Source of the DNA: a virus
DNA length: 41,084 nucleotides
Virus record (IMG/VR): IMGVR_UViG_3300025326_000093
Location: 1-41,084 of that record
Direction: 5' to 3' (one strand)
Part shown: positions 16,049 to 39,752 of the stretch, in pieces
Numbering within the stretch: the stretch's first letter is position 1
Layout: each line of letters starts with the position of its first letter
The notes under the pieces: model-generated
What the model was told of the DNA's origin: nothing
The model's input: the letters and a program-made list of their open reading frames with translations, nothing else
Databases searched by the model: none
Position numbers and translations under genes: made by a program

Positions 16049-16273
16049 GTGACTCCAGACGAGTTCGTCCAGCTCTGTCGCGACATGCTCGCCCTCGACC
16101 CGCCGCCAACGCGGGTTGAAGCCGTCGGGTTTGTCGCGCTGTTTCCAGCGAAGGGTCCGCGGCTCGCAGTCGACAAGGCTCCCGACCGCGCCGACAAGGA
16201 GCCTGATCCGCGCGAGCTTACGGCTGAGCAGCGGCTCGAGATCGAGCTTCGGGCGGAGCTGGAGGGGCGATGA
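16049..16273 (+). CDS. hypothetical protein, 74 aa, before portal
   Basis: A 74-residue protein beginning (V/M)TPDEFVQLCRDMLALDPP. A GTG at 16043 would add two residues, but the GTG at 16049 sits 7 nt after the promoter-like box, matching the other two copies of that element. There is no Shine-Dalgarno sequence, so a leaderless start is likely. The helical N-terminus and acidic, Pro-rich middle end in a helix (LTAEQRLEIELRAELEGR). The stop overlaps the portal ATG. The role is unknown; it is the first gene of the structural block. Confidence 0.6.
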   Translation: MTPDEFVQLCRDMLALDPPPTRVEAVGFVALFPAKGPRLAVDKAPDRADKEPDPRELTAEQRLEIELRAELEGR

Positions 16274-18163: not shown

Positions 18164-18565
18164 ATGTCCAAGAAACACGACGAGCCATCAGCCTTTGACT
18201 CGAAATACGACGAGGTGCCGGTCTACTCCGCCCCCGAGCCGGCCCCGGACCAGTCCGAGCAGCCGGATGCCGTCCGCGGACTAGAGCTCGAGCACGAAGC
18301 ACTGCATCGCGGTGTGGACGCAATCGACGCGCGCGTTGGTGCGCTCGAGGTAGCCTTCGTGGAGCTGCATACGGCGGTGAGCGAGCTGCAGCCCGGCGTC
18401 GAGACGCTCACAGCGCGCGCGACGTCGAACGAGAAGGTGTGGGATTCGCTGTGCGGCAACGTCGAGGCGCTCACGGGGCTGGTCGCCAAGCTGCAGGCCG
18501 ACGTCGACGCGCTTCGAGCGCAGTCAGCTGGCCGGGCGCGCGCCCGGGATCAGCTTGGAATCTGA
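18164..18565 (+). CDS. hypothetical coiled-coil protein, 133 aa
   Basis: A 133-residue protein. A disordered polar N-terminus (SKKHDEPSAFDSKYDEVP, then PAPDQSEQPD) leads to a long heptad-rich coiled coil (ALHRGVDAIDARVGALEVAF, then LHTAVSELQPGVETLTA, then ALTGLVAKLQADVDALRAQS). GAAGGAG precedes the ATG. It sits between portal and scaffold genes and is probably an assembly or virion-internal protein, but no family is recognised. Confidence 0.65.
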   Translation: MSKKHDEPSAFDSKYDEVPVYSAPEPAPDQSEQPDAVRGLELEHEALHRGVDAIDARVGALEVAFVELHTAVSELQPGVETLTARATSNEKVWDSLCGNVEALTGLVAKLQADVDALRAQSAGRARARDQLGI

Positions 18566-18593
18566 GAACAACGCCGAGCAAGGAGCAATAGCA

Positions 18594-19076
18594 ATGGCAA
18601 GTTTCGTGATTCTGCACAAAGGCGAACTGCACACGGTCCTGGTCGACGACGAGGACTACGACCGCGTCATGGCCTCTGGGCCGTGGCACGTGAACACTGG
18701 CAGCAGCAATACGCTTTACGCGGCCCGTAACGTCTACGTCAACGGGAAGCAGACAAAGCGCAAGCTCCACCGCTTCTTGATGGACGCTGGCAACCTCGAA
18801 GTCGATCACATCAACGGGAACGGACTAGACAACAGGCGAGAGAACCTGAGGTTCGCAACGCACGCAGAGAACATGCGCAACCAACACAAGCGACGTGACA
18901 ACGCGTCCGGCTACAAGGGCGTGAGTTTGGAAAAGCGCCGCAGCAAGTGGAGGGCGCAGATCAAGTGCGACGGGAAGAAAATCTTCCTCGGCTATCACAC
19001 CACCCCCGAATCCGCTCACGATGCGTACTGCGCAGCGGCGGCTGAAATGCACGGCGAGTTTCGGAGGACGGCATGA
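18594..19076 (+). CDS. HNH-AP2 endonuclease, copy 3
   Basis: A 160-residue relative of copies 1 and 2: N-terminal block MASFVILHKGELHTVLVDDE, HNH core KLHRFLMDAGNLEVDHINGN followed by GLDNRRENL, and an AP2 domain with SGYKGVSLEKRRSKW and TTPESAHDAYC. It has its own ribosome binding site (AAGGAG, 18580-18585), and the bases GAGCAAGGAG in front of it are shared with the broken copy at 36705. Inserted between a coiled-coil gene and the scaffold gene, it starts 28 bp after the first and overlaps the second (ATGA). Likely active. Confidence 0.92.
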   Translation: MASFVILHKGELHTVLVDDEDYDRVMASGPWHVNTGSSNTLYAARNVYVNGKQTKRKLHRFLMDAGNLEVDHINGNGLDNRRENLRFATHAENMRNQHKRRDNASGYKGVSLEKRRSKWRAQIKCDGKKIFLGYHTTPESAHDAYCAAAAEMHGEFRRTA

Positions 19077-20209: not shown

Positions 20210-21451
20210 ATGGCTGATCTAGATACTGGAGATGCGGGCTACCTGTTCAAGCTTTTGGCTGAGCAGAAGCTGGATGATGATGCGTTGAAGCGGAACAATC
20301 CGCTCGTGAAGTGGATGCCGAGCGAGACAGACTTCACCTCTCACCGAGGCAAGGAAGTTTCGATCGAATACACGACTGCTCAGGGCATGGGCGCGACCGA
20401 GGCCATCGCCTCGAGCACGGCCAACCCCTCCAAGGGCACCGTGTTCCTCGTGCCTCAGCGGCACTGGACGCACAACGCTGGACTGCAGCGCGTGGTGCTG
20501 CAGAACGCTGCGGCAGGCGGATCTGACAGCGAGTTCGCCGACGCAATGGTGAACGAGTTGGACGGCGTCACGCAGCAGTTCGGCAATCAGCTCGAGCGGC
20601 AGGCGTGGGGCACGAGCTCCGGCGTCCGCGGTGTGGTCGCTGTCGGCACCGCGAGCCCCATCACCCTGACCGATATCGCGACGGCGCAGCTGTTCGAGAT
20701 CGGTCAGTCGTTCAGCGCGATCGATCCGTCTGGCGATGCGTTGCGCGTGGGAACCGGCGTGGTCAGCGGGATCAACCGCACGACCGGCGTCATCACGTAC
20801 ACGGGCACGATCACTGCGCTCGCAGTGGGCGACTACTTGATCGGCCTCGGCGACGGCGGCAATGAGCTGTCAGTGCCCGGCAACTTCGCGTTCGACGGCA
20901 TCCAGGGCTGGTGCCCTGTCACCCCGAGCGCGAGCTTCCTCGGCGTCAACCAGACGACCGATCGCGAGCGCATCGCTGGCATCTACACGGACCAGAGCAC
21001 GGCCTCGATCCGCAACGCGTTCATTGCGGCGCAGGCGATCACTGACCTGATGAGCGGACTAGCGCTCGACCAGGCAGCGCCGCTGTTTTGCAACCCGCTC
21101 AACTACGCGGAGGTCGAGATGTCTGTAGAGGCATCGAAGGTCAACGCGATGTCTCTCAAGGAGAAGTACGGGATCGGACTCGAGGGCATCTCGGTCGGCT
21201 CCATGAATTTCGTCAAGGCGGCGTTCTGCCCCGTCAATCACAGCTTCAAGATCGGCAAGGGCGCGTTTATCCGCGGTTCGAGCGGGAAACAACCCAAGTT
21301 GAACAACTTCAACGCGGATGGCTCGGCGTACGTCTACGACCCGGCGACGGGGACGTTGAAGTTCACGATGTCACACGACGGCAACGTGTACAGCCGGCGT
21401 CCCTATCACATCATGCGCGTCAAGGTCCGCGCGCAGACGGTGCTGGCGTAA
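20210..21451 (+). CDS. major capsid protein
   Basis: A 413-residue protein. It opens MADLDTGDAGYLFKLLAEQK with a helical N-arm, then WMPSETDFTSHRGKEVSIEY and TTAQGMGATEAIASSTAN. Downstream come QNAAAGGSDSEFADAMVNEL and a P-domain-like segment with DRERIAGIYTDQSTASIRNA and LFCNPLNYAEVEMSVEAS. The layout is that of HK97-fold shell proteins of podovirus type. Position after the scaffold and length support this. The stop and the next ATG share one base. The preceding 30 bp form the hairpin region. It is expected to be the most abundant protein of the particle. Confidence 0.87.
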   Translation: MADLDTGDAGYLFKLLAEQKLDDDALKRNNPLVKWMPSETDFTSHRGKEVSIEYTTAQGMGATEAIASSTANPSKGTVFLVPQRHWTHNAGLQRVVLQNAAAGGSDSEFADAMVNELDGVTQQFGNQLERQAWGTSSGVRGVVAVGTASPITLTDIATAQLFEIGQSFSAIDPSGDALRVGTGVVSGINRTTGVITYTGTITALAVGDYLIGLGDGGNELSVPGNFAFDGIQGWCPVTPSASFLGVNQTTDRERIAGIYTDQSTASIRNAFIAAQAITDLMSGLALDQAAPLFCNPLNYAEVEMSVEASKVNAMSLKEKYGIGLEGISVGSMNFVKAAFCPVNHSFKIGKGAFIRGSSGKQPKLNNFNADGSAYVYDPATGTLKFTMSHDGNVYSRRPYHIMRVKVRAQTVLA

Positions 21452-22859: not shown

Positions 22860-24175
22860 TGGCCGCCGACCTGTCTGACCTGCTGCAGCGTACCGGAATG
22901 GACGTGGCCTCGCTTGCGAGTCGACTGCGCGAGCTTGCACGGATCACGGATACGGTGGCCGTAACCGACGAGGTGGTGCCGCTCGATCTCGGCGTGCCAC
23001 AGCTCACCCCGGGCTCGGCGCACTGGCAGCGCAGCGCGAACGCGTGGGTAATCTCCGCGCCCGGAGAAGAGCAATCGATTACCTTCAGCCTCGACGTGTT
23101 CGTGCCGCGCGGGGCGCGGGTAACCGGACTTAAGATCAGCTACGCGACGAACGCGAGCTACGTCGACGGTGACGTTGCGCTTGAGCTGATTGTACACGAC
23201 TCGATCGGTACGCAGACAACGGCGGTGCAGAGCAGCGTGGTGCTCGTCCCGTCGACGACGTCGCTTAGCCCGATGCGCACGGCGCTCGCGGTCAGCAAGC
23301 GCCTGCTGATGAGCGACGGCAAGGAGACCATGCTGCGCGTGCGCTACGTCGTCGCGCGGGCGAGCAGCGAGTTCCGAGTGTACGGGCTGAACGTCACGTA
23401 CACGTACACGAACCGTCCGCAGCCTTATCCGCTGACCAGACTGGTGGCTATTGCTGGTGCGCTCAGCGCGGCGATGTCGAGCTGCTCTCTGGCACAGCTG
23501 CAGCCAACGCTCTACTCGCCGGTCGCACAGTGGGCGCTGCGCGGCGCCCCGACCACGGCCATCACGTATGCGGATCGCTCTGGCAATGGTGTGAACTTTA
23601 CGGGAGGCACTCCGATCCCGTGTCCAGACCTGATCTGCGGGCAAACGTGCATCACGAATAGGCCTCCTGCGCCGATCTCGCCGGGGCTCCTAACGGTCAC
23701 GTCTGCGTCGCTGAGAATCGGCGGTGCGTTGACGCTCACGTGCAGGGTATGGATCAAGAGCACTGGCGCTACGCAGGTGCTGCTCGAGCAAGGCGGGTCC
23801 TCGGCAGCCAGCGCAGACAACGCGCAGTACGTGCTGTACGTCGACAGCGCTCACAGGCCTGGTCTCTTCTGGGAGACGGGCGCATCCGTCGACAACTCGG
23901 TGACGTCCACGCTCGTAGCGCCGAATGGCAAATGGACGTTCCTGAGCTGGCGTAGAGACGGTTCTGGCAACCTTACGTTCGGAATTGATGGCGTCTACGA
24001 GACGCTTGCTGGTGGCCTCCCCACTGGGGGCAGCACGTCATTCCTTACGATCATGGACGATGACGGCGGCAGATCGCCGTGGCAGGGCGGAGTGGCAGAC
24101 CTGTGCGTCTGGGCCAGCAGGCTTACCGACAGCGAGCTGCAGCCGCTACAGCGCGCGGCTATGGGGGTTGGCTGA
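22859..24175 (+). CDS. LamG/concanavalin-like tail or spike protein
   Basis: A 438-residue protein. The N-terminal part is a helical segment followed by a beta-rich module (SITFSLDVFVPRGARVTGLK, then ISYATNASYVDGDVALELIV). A C-terminal half shows the LamG-type jelly roll: SLRIGGALTLTCRVWIKSTG, then YVLYVDSAHRPGLFWETG, then KWTFLSWRRDGSGNLTFGID. Such domains bind glycans, so a tail appendage for host attachment is likely. It sits between adaptor and a large tail protein and begins on the last base of the adaptor stop. Confidence 0.65.
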   Translation: MAADLSDLLQRTGMDVASLASRLRELARITDTVAVTDEVVPLDLGVPQLTPGSAHWQRSANAWVISAPGEEQSITFSLDVFVPRGARVTGLKISYATNASYVDGDVALELIVHDSIGTQTTAVQSSVVLVPSTTSLSPMRTALAVSKRLLMSDGKETMLRVRYVVARASSEFRVYGLNVTYTYTNRPQPYPLTRLVAIAGALSAAMSSCSLAQLQPTLYSPVAQWALRGAPTTAITYADRSGNGVNFTGGTPIPCPDLICGQTCITNRPPAPISPGLLTVTSASLRIGGALTLTCRVWIKSTGATQVLLEQGGSSAASADNAQYVLYVDSAHRPGLFWETGASVDNSVTSTLVAPNGKWTFLSWRRDGSGNLTFGIDGVYETLAGGLPTGGSTSFLTIMDDDGGRSPWQGGVADLCVWASRLTDSELQPLQRAAMGVG

Positions 24176-27100
24176 TGGCCGGTGAAGAACTCAAGCTATC
24201 GTTCTTGCTCAACGGCGGCATTGACGATCGCTCGCAGGCCGAACTACGCGCACCCTTGATCCAGCAAGGCGCTAGCCCGAATCTCGCGGCGAGCATCAAC
24301 ACGCGCCTGTCGCCGGTGCCGGGCACCGTCACGCGCGCTCCGGCCCTCACCGCGGTGAGCGGCACGGGCACGGCCGGCGTGGACTGCTACGGGCTGCTGG
24401 CGAGCGACGCTGGCGATGCAGCTGTCGAGTTCTTTTTGCCCGGCGACGAGGGCGCGGCGCTAGGCAATCGCGCCATCTACGGTGACGGCGCAACCAGCAC
24501 GGCGATCCTGCGCCATCAGACGCTTCCAGCGTCGCTGCAGAGCGTGTACGTGCCAACCGTGGTCGAGCCGTTCATCTCGTTGACCACGCCGTATGGCGCG
24601 GATCTGCCCGAGGCGGTCGCATACGACGTGACAAACGCGCGCATTATGCGCGTGGCAACGGACGCGGTTAGCGCGGCGGTCTACGGCTACGTAGTAGACA
24701 CGCTTGGGCGTGTCGTAGTGCCGCTGCAGCTTCTGTTCGTAGATGCGGCCATCACGTGGCTTGGGCTGACGTGGCACGGCGCGAACGGTTTCTATGTCTG
24801 GTACGAGGACGGGACCGCACTGCGCAAGCGGCAGGTCACTGTCAGTGGCTCGCTGTTCACGGTCGGCTCCGAGACCACGGTGTACACGCCGGCCGCGCTA
24901 GGAGACCGCACAGACGTATGCCGAGTCAGCGACACGATCGCCGCGATCCTCGGCACGTCGTCTGCAAGTGCCGACGACGCCACGCTGCGCAGCCACAACG
25001 TGACGAGCGGGGCGGAGACCACTGCGGCTCTATCGGGCGTCGCGGCCGGTACCCCGACGTACTACTCGGTCGTTTGCGAGACGATCCCTTCTCTCGCTGT
25101 GCAGCGGATCGGGGTGGTTTGCTCGACGCAGACGGGGACGGCCGTGAACACGGGCGTCTACGACACGACTCCCACGGCGATCTGGGGGCCAACCTCAGAG
25201 GCCACGTTCCACGGGCCCGTTGCCTGCCGTTTTCAGGACAGCGCCGATGGCGCGCGGCTCGTGTACGCGGTGAGCGACGACTCGGGGTCGTTCTCTGGCG
25301 CGGCCGACACGCTGCGTACGCAGTTCAGGTCGCGTTCGATCGCGACCGGTGGCGCCGGGCCGTTCGTGGCGGATGTGCCTTGGATGGTTCTTGCCAACCG
25401 TGGAGCACAGCTTGCGATCGGGGCGAGGCTGTACCCCGTTTTCTGTCTGCAGCGCGCGTACTCCGGGCCAGCACAGGCATCCGTCTCGTCGCCTGACTTT
25501 GTAGACGATCCGGATATCCAGGTGTGGCTGGCAAACGAGGGCGTGGCAACCATGCAGGTGAGTCCGATCGCCCGCGCTGGCGTGGTCAGGTCTGGCGCGT
25601 CGCCTGCGCGGTGCGCCATCGACGCCAAGCTGGCGGCCGGAAGCGCGGTAGGCGTAGGCCCGAGCGTCTACTGCTCGTATCTCACCGAGAGCTCTGGCGG
25701 ATTGGCGGCGTACGAGCCGCGCATGGCGGTCATAAGCGCGGTCCCGCAGACGCTGCGCTCCGCCCACGATAAGAGCGGCCTGGCCTTTGCTGCGTCCGCG
25801 TTACCCGTTCAGTGGGACGGCAACGAGCTCTCAGAGGCTGGCGGCCCGCTGTACGGGCCGAAGTTGCGGGGGACCGTCACGGGCGGCAGTGGAGCGTCGT
25901 ATGCGGCTGGCATTTACTCGTTCGTGGCGATCTACGTCTGGACCGATGCGGCTGGCATGCTGCACAGGTCGCGCGTCAGCAACGTGGTCACGATGACGCT
26001 TGGAGGAACGGATGAACCCACGCTGGCGGTCAGTTTGGCGGCGTCGCTGAGGCCAGAAGTCAGGGCAGAGGTGTATGGCACGACCGCGAACGGGATCACG
26101 TTCCACCGTATAGCGGCGTATCCGACGTCGATCAGCACAGTGGTCAACTTTGCGAACTTGCCCGAACCGCTACTCGAGAGCCCGCAGATCTACTCCACTG
26201 GCGAGGCCGGCCAGGAGATCATGCCGCAGCCGCCTCCGCCGCTGCACGACGTGGCGATTGTCGGCTCGCGGATGTGGGGCATCGACGCGGAGATTCGCAG
26301 CCGCGCCGTGCACAGCAAGCTTCGCGTGAGCGGCGTGGGCTTTGAGTGGTCGCCGGCCATGGAGGTCAACTTCCCCAGCGGGGGTGGCGACCTGCAGCGC
26401 GTGTTCGAGATGCAGGGCGTGCCGGTGTTCGTGGGCTCTCGCGCCACGTTTTACGTCACCGGCGAGGGGCCGGACAACAACGGCGCGGGCGGATTCTTTT
26501 CTGCGCCCACGAAGGTCAGCGATCACGGCTGCAGCAACGCGCTCGCGTTCGGGTCGTTTCCTGGCGGGGCCGTCTGGCAAGACGGTCTGAAATGGGTGGT
26601 GATGCGCGGCATGCAAACGGCTTACGTCGCTGGCGTGCAGTGCGAGTTTACGCCGATTGCAGCGCTGCACATGCGCCGCTCGTGCGAGATCGTGTTCGTG
26701 AACCCGAGCGGCGGCGCCAAGGTCTACAACTACGAGTACGATCGCTGGACAACGTGCGACGCGGCGGCTGTTCCCGTCTCCACGCTTGGGGCGAGCGTGC
26801 CGTACTCCGACTTCACGGCATACCTGTACAGCAGGGCCACGGGAGCCTTGCTGAAGTGGGCTGACGCCACCCCCTCCGACAGCGCTGTCAACATGACGTT
26901 GGAAACGGACTGGATGCTGCTTGGTGGCGACTGGCAGGATGAGGTCATCCTGCGGTACATCGTCTTCCGCGCGAACCGCGCCGGGCCGCATGCGCTGACC
27001 GTCGATGTGTTCACCGACTACGCCAGTTCGGCGACGACGTCGCGCACGTGGACGAACGCCGAGTTGCTGTCGGTGGCTGACGCGCTCGGCAATTATACGA

Positions 27101-27273
27101 TCCGCATCGAGCCACTCGAGCAGGCATCGCGCGCGGTCAAGGTCCGCATCACGGACAGCACGGTGGGGGAGACCGACAGCGAGGGCATGCGGCCGATCGC
27201 GCTGACGGTGTACTACGCGGCAGAGAGCCCTCTGCGCGAGGAAGCGTTCGCGCTTGACGCGGCGACGAAGTAA
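24175..27273 (+). CDS. large tail protein, possible nozzle/tail hub
   Basis: A 1032-residue protein beginning MAGEELKLSFLLNGGIDDRS with a Pro- and Gly-rich N-terminus (NTRLSPVPGTVTRAP). The rest is a series of beta-rich blocks (for example VESAVYGYVVDTL-like and YTPAALGDRTDVCRVSDTIA), consistent with beta-propeller or barrel domains of phage tail nozzle proteins such as T7 gp12. Length and position after the adaptor and lectin protein support a tail role. It shares one base with the upstream stop. After it the next gene is on the opposite strand, so the block ends here. Confidence 0.6.
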   Translation: MAGEELKLSFLLNGGIDDRSQAELRAPLIQQGASPNLAASINTRLSPVPGTVTRAPALTAVSGTGTAGVDCYGLLASDAGDAAVEFFLPGDEGAALGNRAIYGDGATSTAILRHQTLPASLQSVYVPTVVEPFISLTTPYGADLPEAVAYDVTNARIMRVATDAVSAAVYGYVVDTLGRVVVPLQLLFVDAAITWLGLTWHGANGFYVWYEDGTALRKRQVTVSGSLFTVGSETTVYTPAALGDRTDVCRVSDTIAAILGTSSASADDATLRSHNVTSGAETTAALSGVAAGTPTYYSVVCETIPSLAVQRIGVVCSTQTGTAVNTGVYDTTPTAIWGPTSEATFHGPVACRFQDSADGARLVYAVSDDSGSFSGAADTLRTQFRSRSIATGGAGPFVADVPWMVLANRGAQLAIGARLYPVFCLQRAYSGPAQASVSSPDFVDDPDIQVWLANEGVATMQVSPIARAGVVRSGASPARCAIDAKLAAGSAVGVGPSVYCSYLTESSGGLAAYEPRMAVISAVPQTLRSAHDKSGLAFAASALPVQWDGNELSEAGGPLYGPKLRGTVTGGSGASYAAGIYSFVAIYVWTDAAGMLHRSRVSNVVTMTLGGTDEPTLAVSLAASLRPEVRAEVYGTTANGITFHRIAAYPTSISTVVNFANLPEPLLESPQIYSTGEAGQEIMPQPPPPLHDVAIVGSRMWGIDAEIRSRAVHSKLRVSGVGFEWSPAMEVNFPSGGGDLQRVFEMQGVPVFVGSRATFYVTGEGPDNNGAGGFFSAPTKVSDHGCSNALAFGSFPGGAVWQDGLKWVVMRGMQTAYVAGVQCEFTPIAALHMRRSCEIVFVNPSGGAKVYNYEYDRWTTCDAAAVPVSTLGASVPYSDFTAYLYSRATGALLKWADATPSDSAVNMTLETDWMLLGGDWQDEVILRYIVFRANRAGPHALTVDVFTDYASSATTSRTWTNAELLSVADALGNYTIRIEPLEQASRAVKVRITDSTVGETDSEGMRPIALTVYYAAESPLREEAFALDAATK

Positions 27274-27297
27274 TGGCCGGGCTGAGCTGCCAGCTGG

Positions 27298-27615
27298 CTA
27301 CCGACAGACCTGCAAATCCGTCTCGCCGACCCTCGTGCACACGACCAGGTTACCCGTGCGCGCGGCATGGATGACGGTCAGGGCCTGGAAGAATCTGAAC
27401 GCGCCGCCGCGCGCCGGGGCATTGGCGCGAGCGCGAGCGCGCTCGGCGTCGGCCTGCGCTTTCAAATGCGGGGCCCGTTGCGCGTCTGACCACACCCGCC
27501 ACTCCCGCTCCTCTGGCGTTTCGAGGCTTGCCACGTAATTGCGCGGCGTCTTGACGTGCGCGACGTGAATGCAGCCGGTGGTCAGGCTTACGATCAGTGC
27601 GAGCGCGAGCTTCAT
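27298..27615 (-). CDS. reverse-strand lipoprotein, moron-like
   Basis: A 105-residue lipoprotein on the opposite strand to all surrounding late genes. The N-terminus MKLALALIVSLTTGC is a signal peptide with a lipobox ending at Cys15 (LTTGC). The mature part is mostly helical and Arg/Ala-rich (RVWSDAQRAPHLKAQADAER) and ends with a Cys pair (VCTRVGETDLQVC). Third codon positions are visibly GC-rich, as for a real gene. It lies alone between two late blocks, next to the palindrome at 27627. Phage lipoproteins in such spots often block superinfection or alter the host envelope; this role is inferred. Spanin function is less likely because it is far from the lysis genes. Confidence 0.82.
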   Translation of the reverse strand: MKLALALIVSLTTGCIHVAHVKTPRNYVASLETPEEREWRVWSDAQRAPHLKAQADAERARARANAPARGGAFRFFQALTVIHAARTGNLVVCTRVGETDLQVCR

Positions 27616-27626
27616 GACCGTATCTT

Positions 27627-27638
27627 ACGACCGGTCGT
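27627..27638. promoter_or_regulatory. 12-bp perfect palindrome upstream of the lipoprotein gene
   Basis: ACGACCGGTCGT at 27627-27638 is its own reverse complement and lies 12-23 bp upstream of the lipoprotein start on the minus strand. A dimeric regulator could bind here. No good sigma-70 promoter is obvious, although TAAGAT in minus-strand sense lies next to it. Confidence 0.45.
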
Positions 27639-27664
27639 GTCCAAAACTTGAGAGCAAATCTCGC

Positions 27665-27698
27665 GCAAAGCGAGCGCCGGGCGCGTTCGGCATACGAT
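27665..27698 (+). promoter_or_regulatory. late promoter-like element, copy B
   Basis: GCAAAGCGAGCGCC at 27665-27678, then 15 nt, then ACGAT (27694-27698, within TACGAT, a fair -10 box), then 8 nt to the ATG at 27707. The 14-mer and spacing match copies A and C exactly. This copy sits in the gap between the divergent lipoprotein gene and the internal virion block and would transcribe the latter. The message would begin at or close to the ATG. Confidence 0.7.
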
Positions 27699-27706
27699 CG
27701 CGGGCA

Positions 27707-28726
27707 ATGGGAAGAGCTGGCACGAAAGGTAGTCGTCGACGCAAGGCACGCCGGGAGTTGCGGAAATCGGCCCGCACGGCCAAACCGCAATACCTAGGCG
27801 GCAGCGAGAATGCCGAGAAGGACCTGCTACGCACCGCCGAGCGAGAGAGCGAGTCGGCGCGTGAAGAGCGTTCAGCCGCCACCAAGCGCCTCGACGATGC
27901 AGCAGGCCGCTCGCAGCAGCTCGAGAGCGCCGCGGACCAGGATTACCGGAGCCGCCGAGCCGAGGAAACCGAGTCTCGTGGCGCGCAGCAGAGCTCGATC
28001 TCCGGCATCAACGCGGGCGCGACGTCGGCGATCGGCCTGCGCAACCGCGCGCTGCTCGACAACGACCTGAACGCCGCTGCCTCGCGCGGCATCGCGGAGA
28101 ACGAGGCGGTTGCGCAGCAGCGTCTCGGGCTGCAGACGGGCCTGATCAGCCGTCAGGCGCGCGGGCTCGCCGGCAGCATGGGCGAGGGCGGTGCGCTGGC
28201 CATGCAGCAGGCCATTGCGAGCTCCGGCGCCGGCGCTGCCGAGCTCGCGGCCAAGACCGCGGCGGAACAGGCGGCACAGGCCGCGAAGATGCGGTTCGAG
28301 GGCGCGACGGGGCAAATCACCAACGCGATCGGGGCGGCCGACGCGAACGCCGCTCTCACGTACACGGCGGGCCAGGACGTGGCCGCGGCAACGCAGTCCC
28401 TGCGCCAGGATGACGCCGCTGCGCTAGCCGCCGCGAACGCCAGGCAGACGGCGTTCCTCAACGCCCGCAACGAGGCCGCAGGTGCCGGCGCGACCGCTGC
28501 GCTGGGGGCGTCCGGGCAGGAGCTTGGCTCGCAGGCGGCGCTGGTCGGTGGGCAGGTGGCGGCCAGCCAGGCCAACGAAGCAGCGCGGCTCGCGAGCGCG
28601 GAGGCGAACTCGCTCGCGGCCAGGTTCGCTCGGATGCGGACTGCGACCACGGGCGGGATGATCAAGGTCGGATGGCTGTGTTTCGCCTGGAAAATCGCGG
28701 AGTTACTTGCTGTAAAGGTGGGCTGA
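27707..28726 (+). CDS. Ala-rich internal virion-type protein
   Basis: A 339-residue protein starting MGRAGTKGSRRRKARRELRK with a basic N-terminus, then long Ala/Glu/Gln-rich helices (ALLDNDLNAAASRGIAENEA, then ALAAANARQTAFLNARNEAA), ending with a hydrophobic tail (GGMIKVGWLCFAWKIAELLA). This is typical of podovirus internal core proteins that are ejected with the DNA. The ATG at 27707 is chosen because it lies 8 nt after promoter copy B; the frame is open back to 27569. No Shine-Dalgarno sequence precedes it, so it may be leaderless. No specific family is claimed. Confidence 0.65.
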   Translation: MGRAGTKGSRRRKARRELRKSARTAKPQYLGGSENAEKDLLRTAERESESAREERSAATKRLDDAAGRSQQLESAADQDYRSRRAEETESRGAQQSSISGINAGATSAIGLRNRALLDNDLNAAASRGIAENEAVAQQRLGLQTGLISRQARGLAGSMGEGGALAMQQAIASSGAGAAELAAKTAAEQAAQAAKMRFEGATGQITNAIGAADANAALTYTAGQDVAAATQSLRQDDAAALAAANARQTAFLNARNEAAGAGATAALGASGQELGSQAALVGGQVAASQANEAARLASAEANSLAARFARMRTATTGGMIKVGWLCFAWKIAELLAVKVG

Positions 28727-28836: not shown

Positions 28837-29301
28837 ATGTTCGGACAGGATCTCAGCGACGACGATCTCAACTCTGCCTTGCAAGTTTCCGGGTCGGACT
28901 ATCGCGTTCCATCGGCGCAGCCTGCTGTCGGTTCGTCCGTACAACCACTGCAGACCGCTCCGCCAGCGCAGCCCGCTGCCACGCCCGCCCCGATGGCGCA
29001 GCCGGTCGCGCAGGCATACGACACGACCGAGCGCGGGAAGCCGACCGAAGCCCTGGCCAACCGCGGCATGCAGGGCATCGCCGTCAACACGACTCCGCAG
29101 GAGGCCGCTGATCGTGCAGCGGAGCGTGCGAAGGCGTCGGCAACGTCGATGGCCCCGCCGTCGACGCCTGGGCAGACGGCCGAGTCAGGGCAGTCTGGCC
29201 CTACGGATATGAGACCGCCCGCGGGCCGGCCAGACGACGGCAAAGATCCCGGCGGCAAGCAGTTTTTGGGCGCCATCCTCAAGATGTTTGGGTTGGGCTG
29301 A
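28837..29301 (+). CDS. virion protein, partial paralogue of the 29790 gene
   Basis: A 154-residue Pro/Ala/Gln-rich protein. Its N-terminal phrase LNSALQVSGSDYRVPSAQP aligns with LDQALELSGSTYRLPSAAP in the 581-residue protein at 29790, and its C-terminal GKQFLGAILKMFG resembles GKALSIVGSILSMLPG there. It looks like a shortened or diverged copy of that protein's N-terminal third. HNH copy 4 lies exactly between the two. GAGG precedes the ATG at 28837, which I prefer to the upstream frame start at 28672. It is probably in the internal virion set. Confidence 0.6.
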   Translation: MFGQDLSDDDLNSALQVSGSDYRVPSAQPAVGSSVQPLQTAPPAQPAATPAPMAQPVAQAYDTTERGKPTEALANRGMQGIAVNTTPQEAADRAAERAKASATSMAPPSTPGQTAESGQSGPTDMRPPAGRPDDGKDPGGKQFLGAILKMFGLG

Positions 29302-29789
29302 TGGCAAGCTTTGAGATCACGCGCCGCGACGGCAGTGTGCACACCGTGCTCGTTGACGACGAGGACTTGGGGCGCGTTATCGCGGCAGGGCCGTGGCGTG
29401 TGCATGCGCCGAATAGCGGCAATACGCTGTACGCGATCCGTGACATTTACGTCGACGGAAAAAGGACGACTCAGTATCTCCACCGCTTTCTGCTCGATGC
29501 TGGCAACTTCGAGATCGACCACATCAACTGCGACGGCCTGGATAACCGACGCGCGAACCTGCGGATCGCCACGCCATCTCAGAACCAGCACAACCGTGGC
29601 GCACAGCGCGACAACAAGTCCGGATACAAGGGCGTCACCTTGGACAAGCGCCGCGGCAAGTGGATGGCGCAGATCGCACTCGAAGGCAAGCGGCGGTCGC
29701 TCGGCCTACACGCCACGCCCGAGCTCGCGCACGCGGCATACTGCCGCGCAGCTGCCGAGCTGCACGGTAAGTTCGCCAGGATCGCATAG
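29301..29789 (+). CDS. HNH-AP2 endonuclease, copy 4
   Basis: A 162-residue protein of the same family: N-terminal MASFEITRRDGSVHTVLVDD, HNH core YLHRFLLDAGNFEIDHINCD followed by GLDNRRANL, and AP2 domain SGYKGVTLDKRRGKWMAQ and LGLHATPELAHAAYC. The DH and Asn residues are intact. It starts on the last base of the upstream stop and ends one base before the next ATG, with TAG rather than TGA, so the coupling is looser here. It separates two related virion genes and is most similar to copies 3 and 5 in its N-terminal block. Confidence 0.92.
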   Translation: MASFEITRRDGSVHTVLVDDEDLGRVIAAGPWRVHAPNSGNTLYAIRDIYVDGKRTTQYLHRFLLDAGNFEIDHINCDGLDNRRANLRIATPSQNQHNRGAQRDNKSGYKGVTLDKRRGKWMAQIALEGKRRSLGLHATPELAHAAYCRAAAELHGKFARIA

Positions 29790-31535
29790 ATGGCACGACT
29801 AGAACCGCTAGGATTTCTAGGCGCTGACACCGGAGATCTGCGCCAGGCGCTCGCGGCTCAAGGAAGCGATTCGAGCTTCCTTGACGCGGCACCGGCTCAG
29901 CGCCAGCAGCCCGCACCAGTTCCAACTGCGCCAGCCGTCAACCCGCTCGACCAAGCGCTCGAGCTGAGCGGCAGCACGTACCGGCTGCCCTCAGCCGCGC
30001 CCGTGGCAGCACCAGCGCCAGCCCCAGTCGCGCCACCGCCTATCAGCGCGCAGGCGTTCGATCCGAGCGCTGGGCTGAAGCAGCTCCGCGGCGAGCAGGT
30101 CGCTGGCGTGAACGAAAAGATGGATCTGGCCACGCAGAAGGGCGAGATTGGCGCCGAATCCGCGACTCGCCAGGCCGAGCAGCACGGCTTGCAGCGCGAC
30201 GAGCAGCGCGCCGGCATCGACTCCGCGAAGTCGAGGCAGGCCGCGAACGACGAGCGCCGTGCACGACTCGAGCGGCAGGCCGACGAGGCGCTCGAGGCGA
30301 TGAGCGACGCGATCAAGAACCCGCCCGACGCCACGAAGGGCAAGGCGCTCAGCATCGTCGGCTCGATCCTGTCGATGCTCCCGGGCGGCCAGACGATCGG
30401 CCAGGGTTTCCAGATGCTGCAGCAGAGCATGGCCGAGGACATGAACGCCTACGCGCTCAAGATCCAGAGCAACAAGGAAGCGGCTGGAACGTTCGCCAAG
30501 ATGGCCGGCGCCGAGGACGATGAGAACGAGTCGTTGTTGCGCCAGCAACAGCTGATCGGCAACATGACCGCGGCCACCTACGACTCGGCGCTGAAGCAGA
30601 TCGAGAGCGAGGCGAAGTCGGACGAGGAGCGGCGCGCGGCGCAGGAGGCTCGGCTCGGCGTGCGGCAAATCGCGGTGCAGGGCGCGGTCAGCGCAAGCGA
30701 GCAGCGGGCTGCGTTCGCTGCGAAGAAAGCGCGCACCAATGCTCAGTCCGCTGCTGACACGGAGATCATCAAAGCGATCGTAGGCGCACCGTCTCCCGAG
30801 GCGGGGAAAGCAATCGCGGCGCAGTACGGTCCGCATGGACTCGAGCTGCTCGGATTGGCGCAGAAGGGCGACGTCACGCAGGCGGGTCTCGAGGGCAAGC
30901 GGGCGGACACCGAGGCGACGCGCGCCAAGCTTGCGGCAGGGCCCGCGCCGAAATCGCTCACCGATGGTGAGCGCAAGACACTGCGGCTGTTCGCGGGCGT
31001 GGCGCCGTCTGTCTCGAGAATTCGCGAGATGGCCGGCGGCCGAGGCGCGCCGCATCCGTACGCGGACAACGCGCCTGACATCCTTCGTTCGGCCGAGGCG
31101 CTGGAGGACGAGGCGGCGCTGAAGAACGTGGCGCTGGCACTCCTGCGCGACGAGTCGGGGGCGGCGCTACCGCCTGCCGAGCAGGCCGAGAAGCGCGCAT
31201 CGTGGGGCGTCGACTCCGGAGATCCTGACGTGCGCAAGCGCGGGCTGCAGCTGATGTTGGCGGAGTTCGACGCCCGCAACGGCATGCTGACAGGCGAGGG
31301 CGCTGCCCCTGCCCCTGCCCCACTCGCGCCGCCGTCCGCGCGAGACCCACGGTTCACCCCTGGCCGCGTGACTCCGCAGGCTTCACAGCGCGGCGTCACA
31401 CCAGCGGCGCCACGGCCCGCGCCCCTGGGTGCTCAGCAGCAGCTCGTCAATGCGCCGTACGCGCTCCCCGACGTGCAGGTGAACGTCACCCCCGAAGAAC
31501 TCGCAGGCATTCCCAGCGAGTGGTTGCGCAGATAG
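29790..31535 (+). CDS. internal virion protein, 581 aa
   Basis: A 581-residue protein. The N-terminus is Pro/Ala-rich and disordered (LDQALELSGSTYRLPSAAP), then come coiled-coil helices (ARLERQADEALEAMSDAIKN and later ARLGVRQIAVQGAVSASEQR). A C-terminal phrase LLRDESGAALPPAEQAEKRA followed by VDSGDPDVRKRG resembles the R-x-ESGAAI...E motif of phage internal virion proteins. Ejected core proteins of podoviruses look like this. It lies between HNH copy 4 and the largest virion protein. Likely an ejection-core component; no enzyme motif is seen. Confidence 0.65.
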   Translation: MARLEPLGFLGADTGDLRQALAAQGSDSSFLDAAPAQRQQPAPVPTAPAVNPLDQALELSGSTYRLPSAAPVAAPAPAPVAPPPISAQAFDPSAGLKQLRGEQVAGVNEKMDLATQKGEIGAESATRQAEQHGLQRDEQRAGIDSAKSRQAANDERRARLERQADEALEAMSDAIKNPPDATKGKALSIVGSILSMLPGGQTIGQGFQMLQQSMAEDMNAYALKIQSNKEAAGTFAKMAGAEDDENESLLRQQQLIGNMTAATYDSALKQIESEAKSDEERRAAQEARLGVRQIAVQGAVSASEQRAAFAAKKARTNAQSAADTEIIKAIVGAPSPEAGKAIAAQYGPHGLELLGLAQKGDVTQAGLEGKRADTEATRAKLAAGPAPKSLTDGERKTLRLFAGVAPSVSRIREMAGGRGAPHPYADNAPDILRSAEALEDEAALKNVALALLRDESGAALPPAEQAEKRASWGVDSGDPDVRKRGLQLMLAEFDARNGMLTGEGAAPAPAPLAPPSARDPRFTPGRVTPQASQRGVTPAAPRPAPLGAQQQLVNAPYALPDVQVNVTPEELAGIPSEWLRR

Positions 31536-34500
31536 ATGGCCCAGCGCGTTCAAATCGTTGCTCCAGACGGCACCCTTGGTCACGCAGACGAGGCTGATGT
31601 GCCGTCAATGCTGGCGGACGGCTATCAGCTCGCCACGCCCGACGCGACCCCGGAGGCTGCGCCGGCATTGGAACTCGCGCCTGGGCCGACGTTGCCTGCG
31701 GTCGAGATCGTGCAGCCGGAGACAACGGAGCCCGAGCGCGTCAACGTGTTCGCTCCCGACGGGACGCTCGGCAACGTGGCCGCGGCGGACCTCCCGAGCA
31801 TGCTGCAGGAGGGCTACCGCGCCGCCGACGAGACCGGCATTCAGAGGGCCGCCGAGCTCGAGTACAACGAGTCCGCGCTGGGCATCGCGCAGACCGCGGC
31901 CGAGCAGGCCGCGCAAGGAGCCACGCTCGGCGGCTACGGGCTGGCAGCTGGCGCGATCGACGACGGCTACGGCCAGCGTGTCGAGCAGCGGGCCGAGGAC
32001 AACCCGATCACCGCGACCGCGGCGCAGGTGGCCGGAGCGGTCGCGCCCGTGCTGCTGTCGGGCGGCACAGGCGCAGTCGGCGCGATGGCCAGGGTCACGC
32101 CAGCGGCCCTGGCGGAGCAGATCGGCGCTCGAGCTGGGGTAGGCGCGGCGAAGTATTTCGGGGGCAGCGCAGCCGTCCGGCTGGGCGTTGCAGGCGCAGT
32201 TGAGGGCGGGCTCGGCAGCGCGGCCTTCGACGCTGCCAGCGGCGCCGACCCGGTGAGCGTGCTGAAGTCGCTCGGCACAGGCGCAGCCATCGGCGGCGCA
32301 CTCGGCGCGGGGTTCGGCGTGGCGGAGGGCGCGGTCGGCGCGGTGCGCGGCAAGCTGCGCGAACAGCTCGACGCGTTCGCGGGACGTCGCCAGGCGATGC
32401 GCGTGCAGGCCGAGATCGCGGACCTGCACACCGTTGACGCGCTTACCGCGCCCCTGCCCGAGGAGACGGCGGAGCATCTGATCGTTGGCCAGGGCGACAG
32501 GCTTCTTGCTGACCTGCCAGTCGATCAGATCGACGCGGAGGTCTCGTCGGTGCTCGCAGAGATCAACGACGGCGCGGGCAAGGTCACTGAGCAGACGGTG
32601 CGCGACATCAACGCCGCGTTGCCCAAGGTGACCGGCGCAAACGTCGCGGACCACATCACGGCTCTGCGCACGAACGCATCGAAGACTGCGAAAGAGCGGC
32701 TCGCGGGCGGCGCGGCGGACCCGTTGGAGGCCATGCGCGCGGCGCGCGGCGACCTCGACAACGAGCTCGACGACATCGCCCGCGAGGTCGAGAAGCGCCG
32801 CAACCGGATCTACGACGTGCGCGACAGGATCGACACTGACGATGCGCTCGACGCGAAGCTGCGCGGCGTGGTGGAGCGGACCAAGAACAGCATCACAGCG
32901 TCGCCAGCGTCGATCACGAGTGAGATTCAGCGGCTGCAGGATGCCGTGGCTGGCACACGCGCGGCCTACGGTGACGCGGCACTGGCGATGGACGGCGGCA
33001 CTGCGGCGCTGCGCAAGGTGGAGCTCACGATCGCAGACCTGTCGCCGCGCATCGGCGACGCGATCGCAGACGGCGATCTGGCGCGGGCTTACGCGTTGCT
33101 CGACCGGATGAAGCGCGTGACGCAGCGCGTGGCGAAGCGGACGCAGAGCCGCGAGGTGAAGCAGATCCTTCGCGAGAAGTCCGAAGACTTCAAGAACTAC
33201 CTGATGGACGAGGCGCAGTGGGGCGACGTCGCCGTTCTTCAGCGCGAGTTCAACGGGCCTTGGAGCGAGTACTTTCTCAAGAGCGGTGACAGCGACCTGT
33301 CGAGCCTCACGAAGGCTCGCTCTGGTGACCGCGCGATCGACCCATTCGACACGTCCGAGCGGGTGAGCGGCGGGGGTATGCGCTCGTTCCTCGACGGCAT
33401 CGGCGCGCAGAAGACTGAGACGGCCGAGCGGGCGTGGCGCGCGGAACTCGCTGCGGACGTGCACGACCTCGTCAACCGTTCGTCGCTGGTCGGGTCGGAG
33501 GCGGATCAGGCGCTCGCGCGTCAGGCTGCAGAGGACGCGGTCGCCATCGACGCGCTGTCGACGCGGTTCGCCGAGATCAACGCGATGAAGCCAGAGGGTG
33601 TGAAGCTCGCCAAGCTGGAGGCCGACCAGCTCAAGATCGCCGAGCAGGAAAGCAAGGAGCTCGCCCGCTCGTCTCTTGCCGCGGAGAAAGAGGCGGCAAA
33701 GGAAGCCAAGGACGCGACCCGGCTGGCCACACGCGACGCGAAGGAGATCGAGCGCCAAGCTGCGCGCGAGGCGAAGGAGTCGGCTCGCGAGGCCCGCGAG
33801 ATTGAGCGCTCGACAGCCCAAGAGCTGCGCGAGCGTGCGGCGGTTGAGGCACGCGCCAAGAGCGACCGCGAAGACGCTGTCTCGACGATCGGTGCGGCAT
33901 TCGGCGCTGCGATCGGGGGCGCGCCCGGCGCGGCAGTGGGCTTCGCGCTGGGCAAGCTGCCCAAAATCGTACGCGCTGGGAAGCTGCTGCTCTCCCAGAC
34001 CGACGAGCAGGCCGTGGCACGTGCCGGCAAGGCTGCGGACACGTTCATGCGCACGATCTCGCGCGGGCTCACGGCAGGCGGCAGAGCAGCGCCGGCAGCA
34101 GCCGCAGCGTTCTCAGCCAGCAAGATGGCCGAGGCGATGGCGCAAGTGAACGACTTGCTTGACCCGTCGAGCCCGGCGTCGATCGACCTGCAGCGTAAGG
34201 CGAACCGGCTCGACGTCGTGCGGCCTGGACTCGGCGCGGCCTATGCTGGCTCGGAGATGGCGCGGGCGGAGTTCATTGCGTCGAAGATTCCGGCGCAGCC
34301 GCCGCAGGCGGGACCGTTCGCACGTGCGCCGCGAATGGATCCGGTCTCAGAACGCAAGCTCCAAAGATTTGTCGCAGCCGCTTACTTCCCAGAAAAGGCG
34401 CTCGATCGCGTCGCCAACGGGACGAGCTCGCACGAGGATCGGGAGGTTTTGCGAATCCTCTATCCGCAGCAATGGGCGCGGTTCGTGGACGGCGTCGAGC

Positions 34501-34754
34501 AGCAGCTTTCCACGCGCAAGAAACCGCCGACGTACGACGAGCGGCTTCGGATCTCCTATCAGCTCGGGATCGTCACGAGCCCTAGCACGGATCCGGCCAA
34601 CCTGCCGGCGCTGCAGGCCGTTGCAGACTCGAATGTCGAGGACGCGAAAGACGCCATCGAAGGCAAGCCGCAGGCGGCCTCTAAATACAGAGCCAAAGGC
34701 GATCCAAACAAAGTCTACGGAGCGAGAACTGACGCGATCATTGATCAAAGGTAA
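31536..34754 (+). CDS. large internal virion protein, 1072 aa
   Basis: The longest gene of the window, 1072 residues. It begins with two tandem repeats: VQIVAPDGTLGHADEADVPS with MLADGYQLA, and VNVFAPDGTLGNVAAADLPS with MLQEGYRAA (about residues 5-35 and 67-97). A Gly/Ala-rich hydrophobic region follows (about 110-270), then long helices. A charged coiled coil (EIERQAAREAKESAREAREI) comes next, then a glycine-zipper-like segment (AAFGAAIGGAPGAAVGFALG) that could enter membranes. The C-terminal FVAAAYFPEKALDRVANGTS followed by YPQQWARFVDGV looks like a conserved core-protein tail. A role in DNA ejection through the envelope is likely. No peptidase or transglycosylase motif is apparent. Confidence 0.68.
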   Translation: MAQRVQIVAPDGTLGHADEADVPSMLADGYQLATPDATPEAAPALELAPGPTLPAVEIVQPETTEPERVNVFAPDGTLGNVAAADLPSMLQEGYRAADETGIQRAAELEYNESALGIAQTAAEQAAQGATLGGYGLAAGAIDDGYGQRVEQRAEDNPITATAAQVAGAVAPVLLSGGTGAVGAMARVTPAALAEQIGARAGVGAAKYFGGSAAVRLGVAGAVEGGLGSAAFDAASGADPVSVLKSLGTGAAIGGALGAGFGVAEGAVGAVRGKLREQLDAFAGRRQAMRVQAEIADLHTVDALTAPLPEETAEHLIVGQGDRLLADLPVDQIDAEVSSVLAEINDGAGKVTEQTVRDINAALPKVTGANVADHITALRTNASKTAKERLAGGAADPLEAMRAARGDLDNELDDIAREVEKRRNRIYDVRDRIDTDDALDAKLRGVVERTKNSITASPASITSEIQRLQDAVAGTRAAYGDAALAMDGGTAALRKVELTIADLSPRIGDAIADGDLARAYALLDRMKRVTQRVAKRTQSREVKQILREKSEDFKNYLMDEAQWGDVAVLQREFNGPWSEYFLKSGDSDLSSLTKARSGDRAIDPFDTSERVSGGGMRSFLDGIGAQKTETAERAWRAELAADVHDLVNRSSLVGSEADQALARQAAEDAVAIDALSTRFAEINAMKPEGVKLAKLEADQLKIAEQESKELARSSLAAEKEAAKEAKDATRLATRDAKEIERQAAREAKESAREAREIERSTAQELRERAAVEARAKSDREDAVSTIGAAFGAAIGGAPGAAVGFALGKLPKIVRAGKLLLSQTDEQAVARAGKAADTFMRTISRGLTAGGRAAPAAAAAFSASKMAEAMAQVNDLLDPSSPASIDLQRKANRLDVVRPGLGAAYAGSEMARAEFIASKIPAQPPQAGPFARAPRMDPVSERKLQRFVAAAYFPEKALDRVANGTSSHEDREVLRILYPQQWARFVDGVEQQLSTRKKPPTYDERLRISYQLGIVTSPSTDPANLPALQAVADSNVEDAKDAIEGKPQAASKYRAKGDPNKVYGARTDAIIDQR

Positions 34755-35200: not shown

Positions 35201-36688
35201 GTGGACGTAAACATCGCGATCGCCGATCAGGCCACGAAGCGTCAGGCCGCGCGCACTGAGGTCAGACGGCGCGCGCGCGTCGAGATGTCACGTCAGGCGC
35301 GCGAGAACTCGGCGCAATACAATGCCGCAGTCAAAGCCGTTCTGATCGCGACGCTGCACGACCGACAGCGCGGCGTCGTCGCCGACATCGACGCCGGTGA
35401 GCGCTTCATTTCGCTGTGCTGCTCGCGGCGCGGCGGTAAGACGTACCTGCTGGGCACGTTGATCGTGATTCTGATGCACGATCTCCCGTTCGGGCAGGAG
35501 ATCGTGTTCGTTGCGCCGACGATGAAGCGGGGGAAGGAGCTGATCTTCAGCGAAGTGGCGCGCGTGATCGATGAGTTCTGCCTGCCGTGGCACATCGTGG
35601 AGACGATGGGCACCATTCGCACGACTACCGGCGCCTATTTCAGAGTTGTCGGACTCGACAAGAAAAAGCAGATTGGCCGCGTGGCCCGCGGCGGCAACAC
35701 GCGCGCCTTTTTCAGCGACGAGACCCAGGAATACGCTCATCTACTGCAGGACTTCATCAAGGCCGCGTCGCCAGCGCTGGCGCAGTCCAAGGGAATCTTC
35801 ATCGCCGCTGGCACACCCGGCGTTGCGCAGAGCGGATTCTGGTATGACGTCTGCAAAGGCGCGGCTGGGTTCCGCTCGTACAACTGGAGCCTGCGCGACA
35901 ACCCGCACCTTGGCAGACCAGCAGAGGAGATTCTGCGCGAAGAGCGCGAGCGCATGGGGTGGGACGAGAATCATCCGGACTACCGGCGCGAGTGGCTCGG
36001 GTTATGGTGCAGGGACAGCAATCGGCTAGTGGTAGAGTTCAACCACGTCAAGAATCTCGTTGCCGAGCCGCCTGGCTACGATATCAAGAAGTGGCGCCAC
36101 TTCGTGGGAGTGGACTACGGGTTCAACGATCCATGCGCGTGGGTAGTGCTCGCTGCGCATCCCAACTCACGCGAAGTGTTCGTGGTTCACGCCGAGAAAC
36201 ACGCTGGGTTCACCAGCGAGCAGATTGCTGACAAGACATACGAGCTCAAGGTCAGGTTCAGTCCCGTGGCGATAGTCGGTGACAGCGCCAGCGGCGGGAA
36301 AACATTCATCAGCGACTTCAATGTTCGGTACGGATCCAAGGCCGGGGTCCGCATGCGCCACGCGCGCAAGGCGGACAAGGCAGGCCGCATCTCGTTCCTA
36401 AATACTGAGCTTCGCTGCAGCAGACTACGACTAGTTGAGTCAGCGTCAGGTCCGTTGATCGAAGAAATCGAGGTGCTACAGTGGGCAGATGACGAGCGGA
36501 CCAAGATACTAGAGGGCTTGTCGTTTCCAGATCACGCGTTCGACGCCGCGCTTTACGCCTTGGGAGAGTTCAGGGCGTACAATCACAAGGCGGCGAAGCC
36601 GGAGCCGACCGCGGCCGAGATGGAGCTGGAATCGATCGAGCGCAGGAACGCAGCTGCAAGGGCCGCAGAGTCGTGGGGTACTGGCTGA
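35201..36688 (+). CDS. terL: terminase large subunit
   Basis: A 495-residue DNA-packaging motor with GTG start. The ATPase has Walker A CSRRGGKT (74-81) and Walker B AFFSDETQEY (169-178, Asp173/Glu174). The nuclease domain of RNase H-like fold shows VGVDYGF (Asp305), AIVGDSASGG (Asp361) and PDHAFDAALYAL (Asp444/Asp448), all the acidic metal ligands. It pumps DNA through the portal and cuts the concatemer. The gene lies about 21 kb from terS. An N-terminal helical extension precedes the ATPase. No clear ribosome binding site is seen before the GTG. A nearby broken HNH gene follows. Confidence 0.93.
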   Translation: MDVNIAIADQATKRQAARTEVRRRARVEMSRQARENSAQYNAAVKAVLIATLHDRQRGVVADIDAGERFISLCCSRRGGKTYLLGTLIVILMHDLPFGQEIVFVAPTMKRGKELIFSEVARVIDEFCLPWHIVETMGTIRTTTGAYFRVVGLDKKKQIGRVARGGNTRAFFSDETQEYAHLLQDFIKAASPALAQSKGIFIAAGTPGVAQSGFWYDVCKGAAGFRSYNWSLRDNPHLGRPAEEILREERERMGWDENHPDYRREWLGLWCRDSNRLVVEFNHVKNLVAEPPGYDIKKWRHFVGVDYGFNDPCAWVVLAAHPNSREVFVVHAEKHAGFTSEQIADKTYELKVRFSPVAIVGDSASGGKTFISDFNVRYGSKAGVRMRHARKADKAGRISFLNTELRCSRLRLVESASGPLIEEIEVLQWADDERTKILEGLSFPDHAFDAALYALGEFRAYNHKAAKPEPTAAEMELESIERRNAAARAAESWGTG

Positions 36689-36704: not shown

Positions 36705-37102
36705 ATGGCGAGTTTTACGATTACGCGCAAGGACGGGTCAGTTCACACCGTCCTCGTAGACGACGAGGACTACGACCGCGTCATGGCCAGCTGCACCGAT
36801 TTCTGTTCGATGCTGGTGATCTCGAGATCGACCACGTGAACCGTAACGGGCTGGACAACAGGCGCGCGAATCTGCGCCTCGCGACGCGTTCGGAGAACCT
36901 GCGCAACCGCGCCGTACATTGCAACAACACGAGCGGATACCGGGGCGTTCGCTGGAAGCCAGCGCGTCGCAAGTGGGTGGCGAATATCACGCTCAACGGC
37001 CAGCAGCACCATCTCGGCTACCACGCCACCCCCGAGGCCGCTCATCAGGCCTATTGCGCCGCCGCGCGCGAACTGCACGGAGAGTTTGCCCGCACTGGCT
37101 GA
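36705..37102 (+). pseudogene. broken HNH-AP2 endonuclease, copy 5
   Basis: The ribosome binding site, start and N-terminal block are intact: MASFTITRKDGSVHTVLVDD, then YDRVMAS. The sequence then jumps from GGCCAG (36785-36790) straight to CTGCACCG, omitting about 90 bp that in the other copies encode the AAGPW to linker part, and the frame shifts. The original frame stops soon after, but the second frame restores the HNH and AP2 regions (LHRFLFDAGDLEIDHVNRNG, then GYRGVRWKPARRKW) to 37102. A GTG at 36836 could give an 88-residue AP2-only protein. The gene is decaying; whether the fragment binds DNA is unknown. Confidence 0.85.
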
Positions 37103-38414: not shown

Positions 38415-38729
38415 ATGGACGAACTGCTGACAGCTATACCACCAGACCTGCTTGCTAAGGCCTCGCCCTGGCTGCTCGGCGCCTTCCTCTTCTGCAGCGG
38501 ACTGGGCTGGCTGCTCAAGCACTTCGCCGCCGCTGCAATCGCAGCCGATGGGCGTCTGTTCTGGCTCGCTCGCGTGCTCGACTGGGCAGCGCTGAATAGT
38601 AAGACCGCCCTGTCGATCGCGAAGGAAGCCAAACTCAAGTCCGAGATCGTGCAGAAAACCGATCAGCTGAATCGGGCGCTTTCGCTACCGCCTGTGAAGT
38701 ACGTCAAAGAGCTGAACGGAGAGGAATAG
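38415..38729 (+). CDS. holin candidate, 104 aa
   Basis: A 104-residue protein with one clear membrane segment (SPWLLGAFLFCSGLGWLLKH, residues about 17-37) followed by a helical, charged C-terminal half (NSKTALSIAKEAKLKSEIVQ). Position before another one-span protein and the endolysin fits the lysis cassette of podoviruses. It may be the holin or its partner; holins have no reliable sequence signature, so this rests on position and membrane topology. Confidence 0.5.
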   Translation: MDELLTAIPPDLLAKASPWLLGAFLFCSGLGWLLKHFAAAAIAADGRLFWLARVLDWAALNSKTALSIAKEAKLKSEIVQKTDQLNRALSLPPVKYVKELNGEE

Positions 38730-38731
38730 CC

Positions 38732-38917
38732 ATGAGTAAGCTCGCCAAAGCCGGCCGCGCCCTCACGATCATTCTTCCGATCGTCGACGGCATCTCGTGG
38801 GCGATCGACAAGATCCGCGCGCGCCGCAAGCGCCGTTTCACCGATGCCGAACGTGAGCAGGCCACACGCGAGGCCAAGGAACGCTTGGACGAGATCGTTC
38901 GCAGGGCGAAGCGTTGA
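38732..38917 (+). CDS. small membrane protein in the lysis cassette, 61 aa
   Basis: A 61-residue protein with a moderately hydrophobic segment (ALTIILPIVDGISWAI, about residues 10-25) and a strongly basic tail (RARRKRRFTDAEREQATREA). Such a layout, membrane anchor plus positive C-terminus, occurs in small holins and antiholins. The ATG lies 2 nt after the previous stop. Role inferred from context only. Confidence 0.5.
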   Translation: MSKLAKAGRALTIILPIVDGISWAIDKIRARRKRRFTDAEREQATREAKERLDEIVRRAKR

Positions 38918-39183: not shown

Positions 39184-39185
39184 GC

Positions 39186-39665: not shown

Positions 39666-39699
39666 CCGTCAGACTGACGGTACCATCGGCGCCAAAAAC

Positions 39700-39748
39700 T
39701 ACGCCGCCGGCTTCCCTTTCGGGCTTGCACGGCGGCGCGGAGCGCGTA
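39700..39748 (+). ncRNA. stem-loop in the 39.7-kb non-coding stretch
   Basis: TACGC CGCCG (39700-39709) pairs with CGGCG (39730-39734) and, after a 9-nt bulge, GCGTA (39744-39748). Inside the loop, CCC (39713-39715) can pair with GGG (39721-39723). The compact two-level structure suggests a structured RNA or a replication or terminator element rather than coding. No homology is claimed. Confidence 0.35.
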
Positions 39749-39752
39749 GGCT

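Follow-up and report, generated by a model that had tools for sequence, protein, structure and literature searches.

Why would a single reverse-strand gene lie between two virion genes of a phage late region, and what might its product do? We address this question for IMG/VR virus record IMGVR_UViG_3300025326_000093, the whole of which (41,084 bp, 65% GC) is here called the window. The phage is known from metagenome sequence alone. Gene order and weak family matches mark it as podovirus-like (Table 1). It also carries genes for a DnaB helicase, a beta clamp, and a methylase, and no tyrosine integrase was detected in its genome. Searches of named phages by DNA, portal, terminase, capsid, or tail protein gave no usable relative, and a search of genome contigs gave none. 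The original prediction, made from the letters of the sequence, held that the reverse-strand gene is a lipoprotein moron with its own regulation that changes the host envelope.

Table 1. Coordinates of the features discussed. Positions refer to the window unless L004 is named. Family matches are weak and were read together with gene order.
Feature	Position	Strand	Detail or basis
Window, whole virus record	41,084 bp		IMGVR_UViG_3300025326_000093
Cro/C1-type protein	7187-7444		
Terminase small subunit	13766-14242		family match
Portal or head-tail connector	16270-18153		family match
Capsid	20210-21451		family match
Tail protein, left flank of slot	24175-27273	+	1032 aa, conserved; probably nozzle-like
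Variable slot flanked by conserved virion genes	27274-27706		433 bp
Predicted lipoprotein gene	27298-27615	-	105 aa (14-residue signal, 91-residue mature part); ATG start, TAG stop
Predicted lipoprotein signal peptide and lipobox	27571-27615	-	codons 1-15, MKLALALIVSLTTG then Cys15; relaxed lipobox rule, hydrophobicity, chance rate
-10-like TAAGAT	27622-27627	-	no -35, no Shine-Dalgarno
Perfect palindrome ACGACCGGTCGT, possible operator	27627-27638		-12 to -23 from ATG
Ala/Gln-rich virion-type protein, right flank of slot	27707-28726	+	conserved; start codon set from the L004 and L005 alignments
Large virion proteins	29790-34754		
Terminase large subunit	35201-36688		family match
Endolysin region	38415-39665		
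CHAP/TIGR02594 endolysin-like	39186-39665		family match
L004 slot occupant, predicted lipoprotein	L004:13237-13731	+	164 aa; own lipobox MKFVALVLAVLVVGC, metzincin zinc motif HEMLHCLGLEHERSD

We find that the gene is the sole credible one on the reverse strand between 1093 and 41058, as had been claimed for the late region. Gene calling with a model trained on the window kept no other in this interval, and the remaining reverse-strand candidates are weak and confined to the left end (50 to 1002). The GC-rich third positions are likewise borne out, with a third-position GC of 0.82 that equals that of the neighboring genes. Under a codon model trained on the 35 other genes of the window, from which this gene was left out, it scores +0.21 bits per codon, about the bottom of the range covered by the training genes (0.208 to 0.594). 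Random open reading frames of 90 to 125 aa score -0.23 on average (SD 0.11), and none of 3,352 scores as high as the gene. The same is true of 23 shadow frames within genes, the best of which reaches 0.164. We rejected coding on the forward strand of the gap, since codon scores there are negative or near zero.

The 105-aa translation reads MKLALALIVSLTTGC (through Cys15) and then IHVAHVKTPRNYVASLETPEEREWRVWSDAQRAPHLKAQADAERARARANAPARGGAFRFFQALTVIHAARTGNLVVCTRVGETDLQVCR, with the predicted cleavage site before Cys15. As a lipoprotein signal we counted a basic n-region, a hydrophobic stretch, and a lipobox with its cysteine at position 15 to 35. Cys15, Lys2, and a hydrophobic h-region agree with the relaxed PROSITE-type (PS51257-type) rule, but the strict [LVI][ASTVI][GAS]C lipobox does not match because position -3 is Thr. 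The proposed signal peptide with lipobox is retained in its relaxed form. In random sequence, frames of at least 100 aa with a signal of this kind turn up at a rate of 0.27 per 41 kb, which comes to about 0.003 per 433-bp gap, and the gene is the window's one frame of that length to carry one. Both the coding status of the gene and its lipoprotein signal are well supported. Its product is most likely a lipid-anchored envelope protein, judging from this signal. The signal supports the putative envelope location implied by the original prediction.

The mature protein (91 residues) is basic, with a pI of 9.9, and the cysteines are Cys15, Cys93, and Cys104. AlphaFold models a helix at residues 34 to 65 with confidence and the remainder poorly (mean pLDDT 54); a C-terminal hairpin that contains Cys93 and Cys104 appears at low confidence. 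Foldseek returned nothing significant with this model. The 105-aa protein had no homologue in phages or plasmids, no match in PHROGs, Pfam, or NCBIfam, no relevant match in PDB, and no relative in the records of the three IMG/VR relatives described below. Nor was a homologue found in IMG/VR viral contigs, where a single-protein query finds close relatives only. A weak Pfam match to BscB (E 0.008, below the cut-off) was treated as noise. Comparisons with the known exclusion-type lipoproteins Llp, Rtp45, Cor, and Ltp likewise gave no sequence homology (PHROG, Pfam, NCBIfam, and PDB). The protein is ordinary in kind and orphan in sequence, and since it has no homologue of any kind, its function can be approached by analogy alone.

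Three relatives from IMG/VR were reached via the tail protein. One of them, L002/L003, has a capsid 71% identical to that of the window, but it ends inside the tail gene, so the slot is unreadable there. The other two, L004 (a 58-kb contig, 58% GC in the part read) and L005 (a 53-kb contig, 69% GC), are distant but follow the window in gene order, from the portal through a scaffold-region gene, the capsid, and the tail protein to the next virion protein. Between the window and these two, the tail protein is 30 to 32% identical over its full length, and the gene after the slot is 32 to 37% identical with a shared start. A longer start for that gene at 27569, which would overlap the lipoprotein gene, was rejected on alignment to both relatives.

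What lies between these orthologous flanks is different in each of the three phages: the reverse-strand orphan lipoprotein in the window, a forward metzincin-type lipoprotein unrelated to it by sequence in L004, and nothing in L005, where the tail gene stops at 13255 and the next ATG is at 13263, with 7 bp between. This supports the view that the slot is facultative and that its cargo is exchanged between relatives. The L004 occupant has an HEXXHXXGXXH motif with weak matches to Astacin and Matrixin; it has no relatives in named phages, and its AlphaFold model was unusable. Because the gene is absent or replaced in relatives whose flanks are orthologous, the moron reading of the original prediction gains independent support, and the gene is probably an optional addition to the genome. 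Superinfection blocking remains an analogy. We judge it highly probable, taking the two points jointly, that the gene codes for a protein with a lipoprotein signal and that the slot is facultative, with cargo exchanged between relatives.

Both known occupants of the slot are predicted lipoproteins. This is suggestive because the lipobox scan found no second convincing lipoprotein in the window, and none besides the occupant in the stretches of L004 and L005 that it covered. It suggests, from two occupants of two (n = 2), that the slot carries envelope-directed cargo. The late operon of this uncharacterized podovirus-like group would then seem to hold a variable slot for envelope-targeted accessory proteins. 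A stronger version, in which the slot is a dedicated bay for envelope-directed lipoproteins in an undescribed podovirus group, with sequence, enzyme type, and orientation varying and some members empty, is a speculation that we hold to be doubtful. Should more genomes bear the pattern out, new lipoproteins that exclude superinfecting phages or modify the envelope could be sought through their position in the slot instead of through sequence similarity.

The expression signals are sparser. The palindrome is exact, as originally described, and has no other perfect copy in the window. However, it carries little weight: perfect palindromes of at least 12 nt number 25 in the window against about 17 in shuffled sequence, and the chance of one falling in the 91-bp gap is about 5%. 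As such palindromes are common here, ACGACCGGTCGT is weak evidence by itself. Consensus scans found no sigma-70 promoter, only the -10-like TAAGAT, and no terminator; no Shine-Dalgarno sequence precedes the ATG at 27615. The proposed regulation of its own is plausible from the orientation of the gene, but the palindrome is weak, TAAGAT lacks a -35 partner, and no promoter was found. An 8-bp inverted repeat also brackets the slot (27288-27295 and 27715-27722), and we judged it to be chance.

How might such a gene serve the phage? We propose, tentatively and at rather less than even probability for the chain as a whole, an accessory gene with its own promoter whose lipidated envelope product would block a receptor and so counter superinfection or the loss of progeny to debris. 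In this undescribed podovirus-like group, a reverse-oriented moron in the late operon would encode a small, basic, secreted lipoprotein. From a promoter in the 91-bp gap, the gene may be transcribed earlier than, or independently of, the late genes, whose transcription would cross it in antisense. With the usual spacing, TAAGAT would place the transcript start on or immediately beside the ATG and yield a leaderless message. The palindrome would then occupy the spacer from -35 to -10, a common binding site of repressors; as the sequence lacks a -35 consensus, this arrangement is hypothetical. The Cro/C1-type protein is a candidate regulator. The product would be lipidated at Cys15 and retained in the host envelope, and Ile at +2 would direct it to the outer membrane, provided that the host is diderm and its Lol sorting resembles that of E. 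coli. There, the helix and the Cys93-Cys104 hairpin may bind an envelope protein, and the benefit would be that seen with Llp and Rtp45.

Superinfection exclusion is, by this analogy, the likeliest function, though it too falls somewhat short of an even chance. Superinfection-exclusion lipoproteins are small, periplasmic, allosteric receptor blockers (PMC9586334; PMC12685063). Llp attaches to FhuA from the periplasm (PMC9586334), and the Llp proteins of T5 and BF23 are non-homologous versions in related phages that do the same job (PMC4728585). Like Llp, the product described here would be a small phage-encoded lipoprotein whose gene adjoins a tail gene. In contrast to Llp, it comes from a podovirus-like phage, shows no detected similarity, and has its role by analogy; moreover, its neighbor is a probably nozzle-like tail protein, whereas llp of T5 lies beside the gene for the receptor-binding protein, which argues against exclusion. 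Rtp45 of phage Rtp, considered here with the Cor-type exclusion lipoproteins of T1-like phages, binds LptD and is a short lipoprotein with a Cys30-Cys38 disulfide and a hairpin (PMC12685063). A cysteine pair in a hairpin is shared with our protein, in which the disulfide is putative, but ours is longer (91 mature residues versus about 6 kDa) and has no PHROG or PDB match. Ltp of TP-J34, a streptococcal prophage lipoprotein, offers the idea of a lipoprotein moron. It differs in that our protein has no Pfam match and its gene is reversed within the late region; with no tyrosine integrase detected, a temperate role such as that of Ltp becomes less probable.

Other readings of the gene must be set against receptor blocking. 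The L004 occupant is protease-type, which means that exclusion is not necessarily the purpose of the slot. The product may be another kind of accessory lipoprotein that acts on the envelope, one that inhibits an envelope protease or lysozyme of the host, stabilizes the envelope, or contributes to host fitness. The variable slot in L004 and L005 fits this possibility, and the metzincin motif indicates that the biochemistry of the cargo varies. A precedent comes from Listeria, where a phage-derived metzincin and lipoprotein pair is reported to alter cell-wall sensitivity (PMC8235301). However, the 91 mature residues have neither a family match nor an enzyme motif and indicate no specific target, and we regard such a role as possible, though well short of even odds. 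A frame without function, in a 433-bp spacer that might be structural or regulatory DNA, would explain the want of homologues, Shine-Dalgarno sequence, and clear promoter, as well as a codon score at, or just under, the minimum of the training genes. Against this stand the random and shadow frames, none of which reaches that score, the rarity of a chance lipobox in such a gap, and the lipoprotein gene at the same place in L004. A chance open reading frame is unlikely on codon and signal evidence, and we give the non-functional reading very little credence.

The main specific rival is a stand-alone o-spanin, which would act with a partner in the inner membrane, for example the product of 40271-40873, to fuse the membranes at lysis. 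It is the genome's one convincing lipoprotein, predicted to be small and to have a periplasmic domain, and neither the endolysin region nor the gene pair at 40271-41058 contains an o-spanin. T4-family o-spanins have no proline stretches and have conserved cysteines 87 and 98, which are 11 residues apart (PMC6139136). Our protein resembles this T4-type (PseT.2) family in being a lipoprotein without a proline-rich region and in the spacing of Cys93 and Cys104, also 11 apart. Yet two-component spanin genes are nested, overlapping, or close in described architectures (PMC6139136), whereas the lysis-type genes here (38415-41058) lie 11 to 13 kb away on the other strand. There is no spanin match in PHROG or Pfam, and a slot that is protease-type in L004 and empty in L005 would be unexpected of a lysis gene. 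We therefore consider an o-spanin improbable, and receptor blocking by an accessory envelope lipoprotein is the reading that we tentatively prefer.

Several further features of these genomes are recorded here. The right-end pair at 40271-41058 consists of overlapping genes for a 200-aa protein (40271-40873), with an N-terminal membrane segment followed by a long helical region (membrane segment plus coiled coil), and a 62-aa protein with a membrane segment at its N-terminus; the two resemble a lysis or spanin-type pair, but neither has a lipobox. Between the endolysin-like gene and this pair lie 605 bp (39666-40270) without a convincing gene. In the early region, 1593-1769 encodes a 58-aa membrane protein in which an LSGC motif is flanked by two hydrophobic stretches, and which may be holin-like or lipoprotein-like. 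L005 encodes a 1421-aa virion-region protein (L005:14748-19013) rich in "DAG(AP)" repeats. Repeat motifs of this kind are common in Myxococcota proteins, and they are a possible hint at the host.

Finally, an HNH-AP2 homing-endonuclease-like gene occurs five times in the window (1093-1596, 2357-2842, 18555-19076, 29301-29789, and 36705-37102). The copies are mostly 58 to 67% identical to each other, and the fifth is broken into two pieces (36705-36839 and 36836-37102). The same family is present in L004 and L006.
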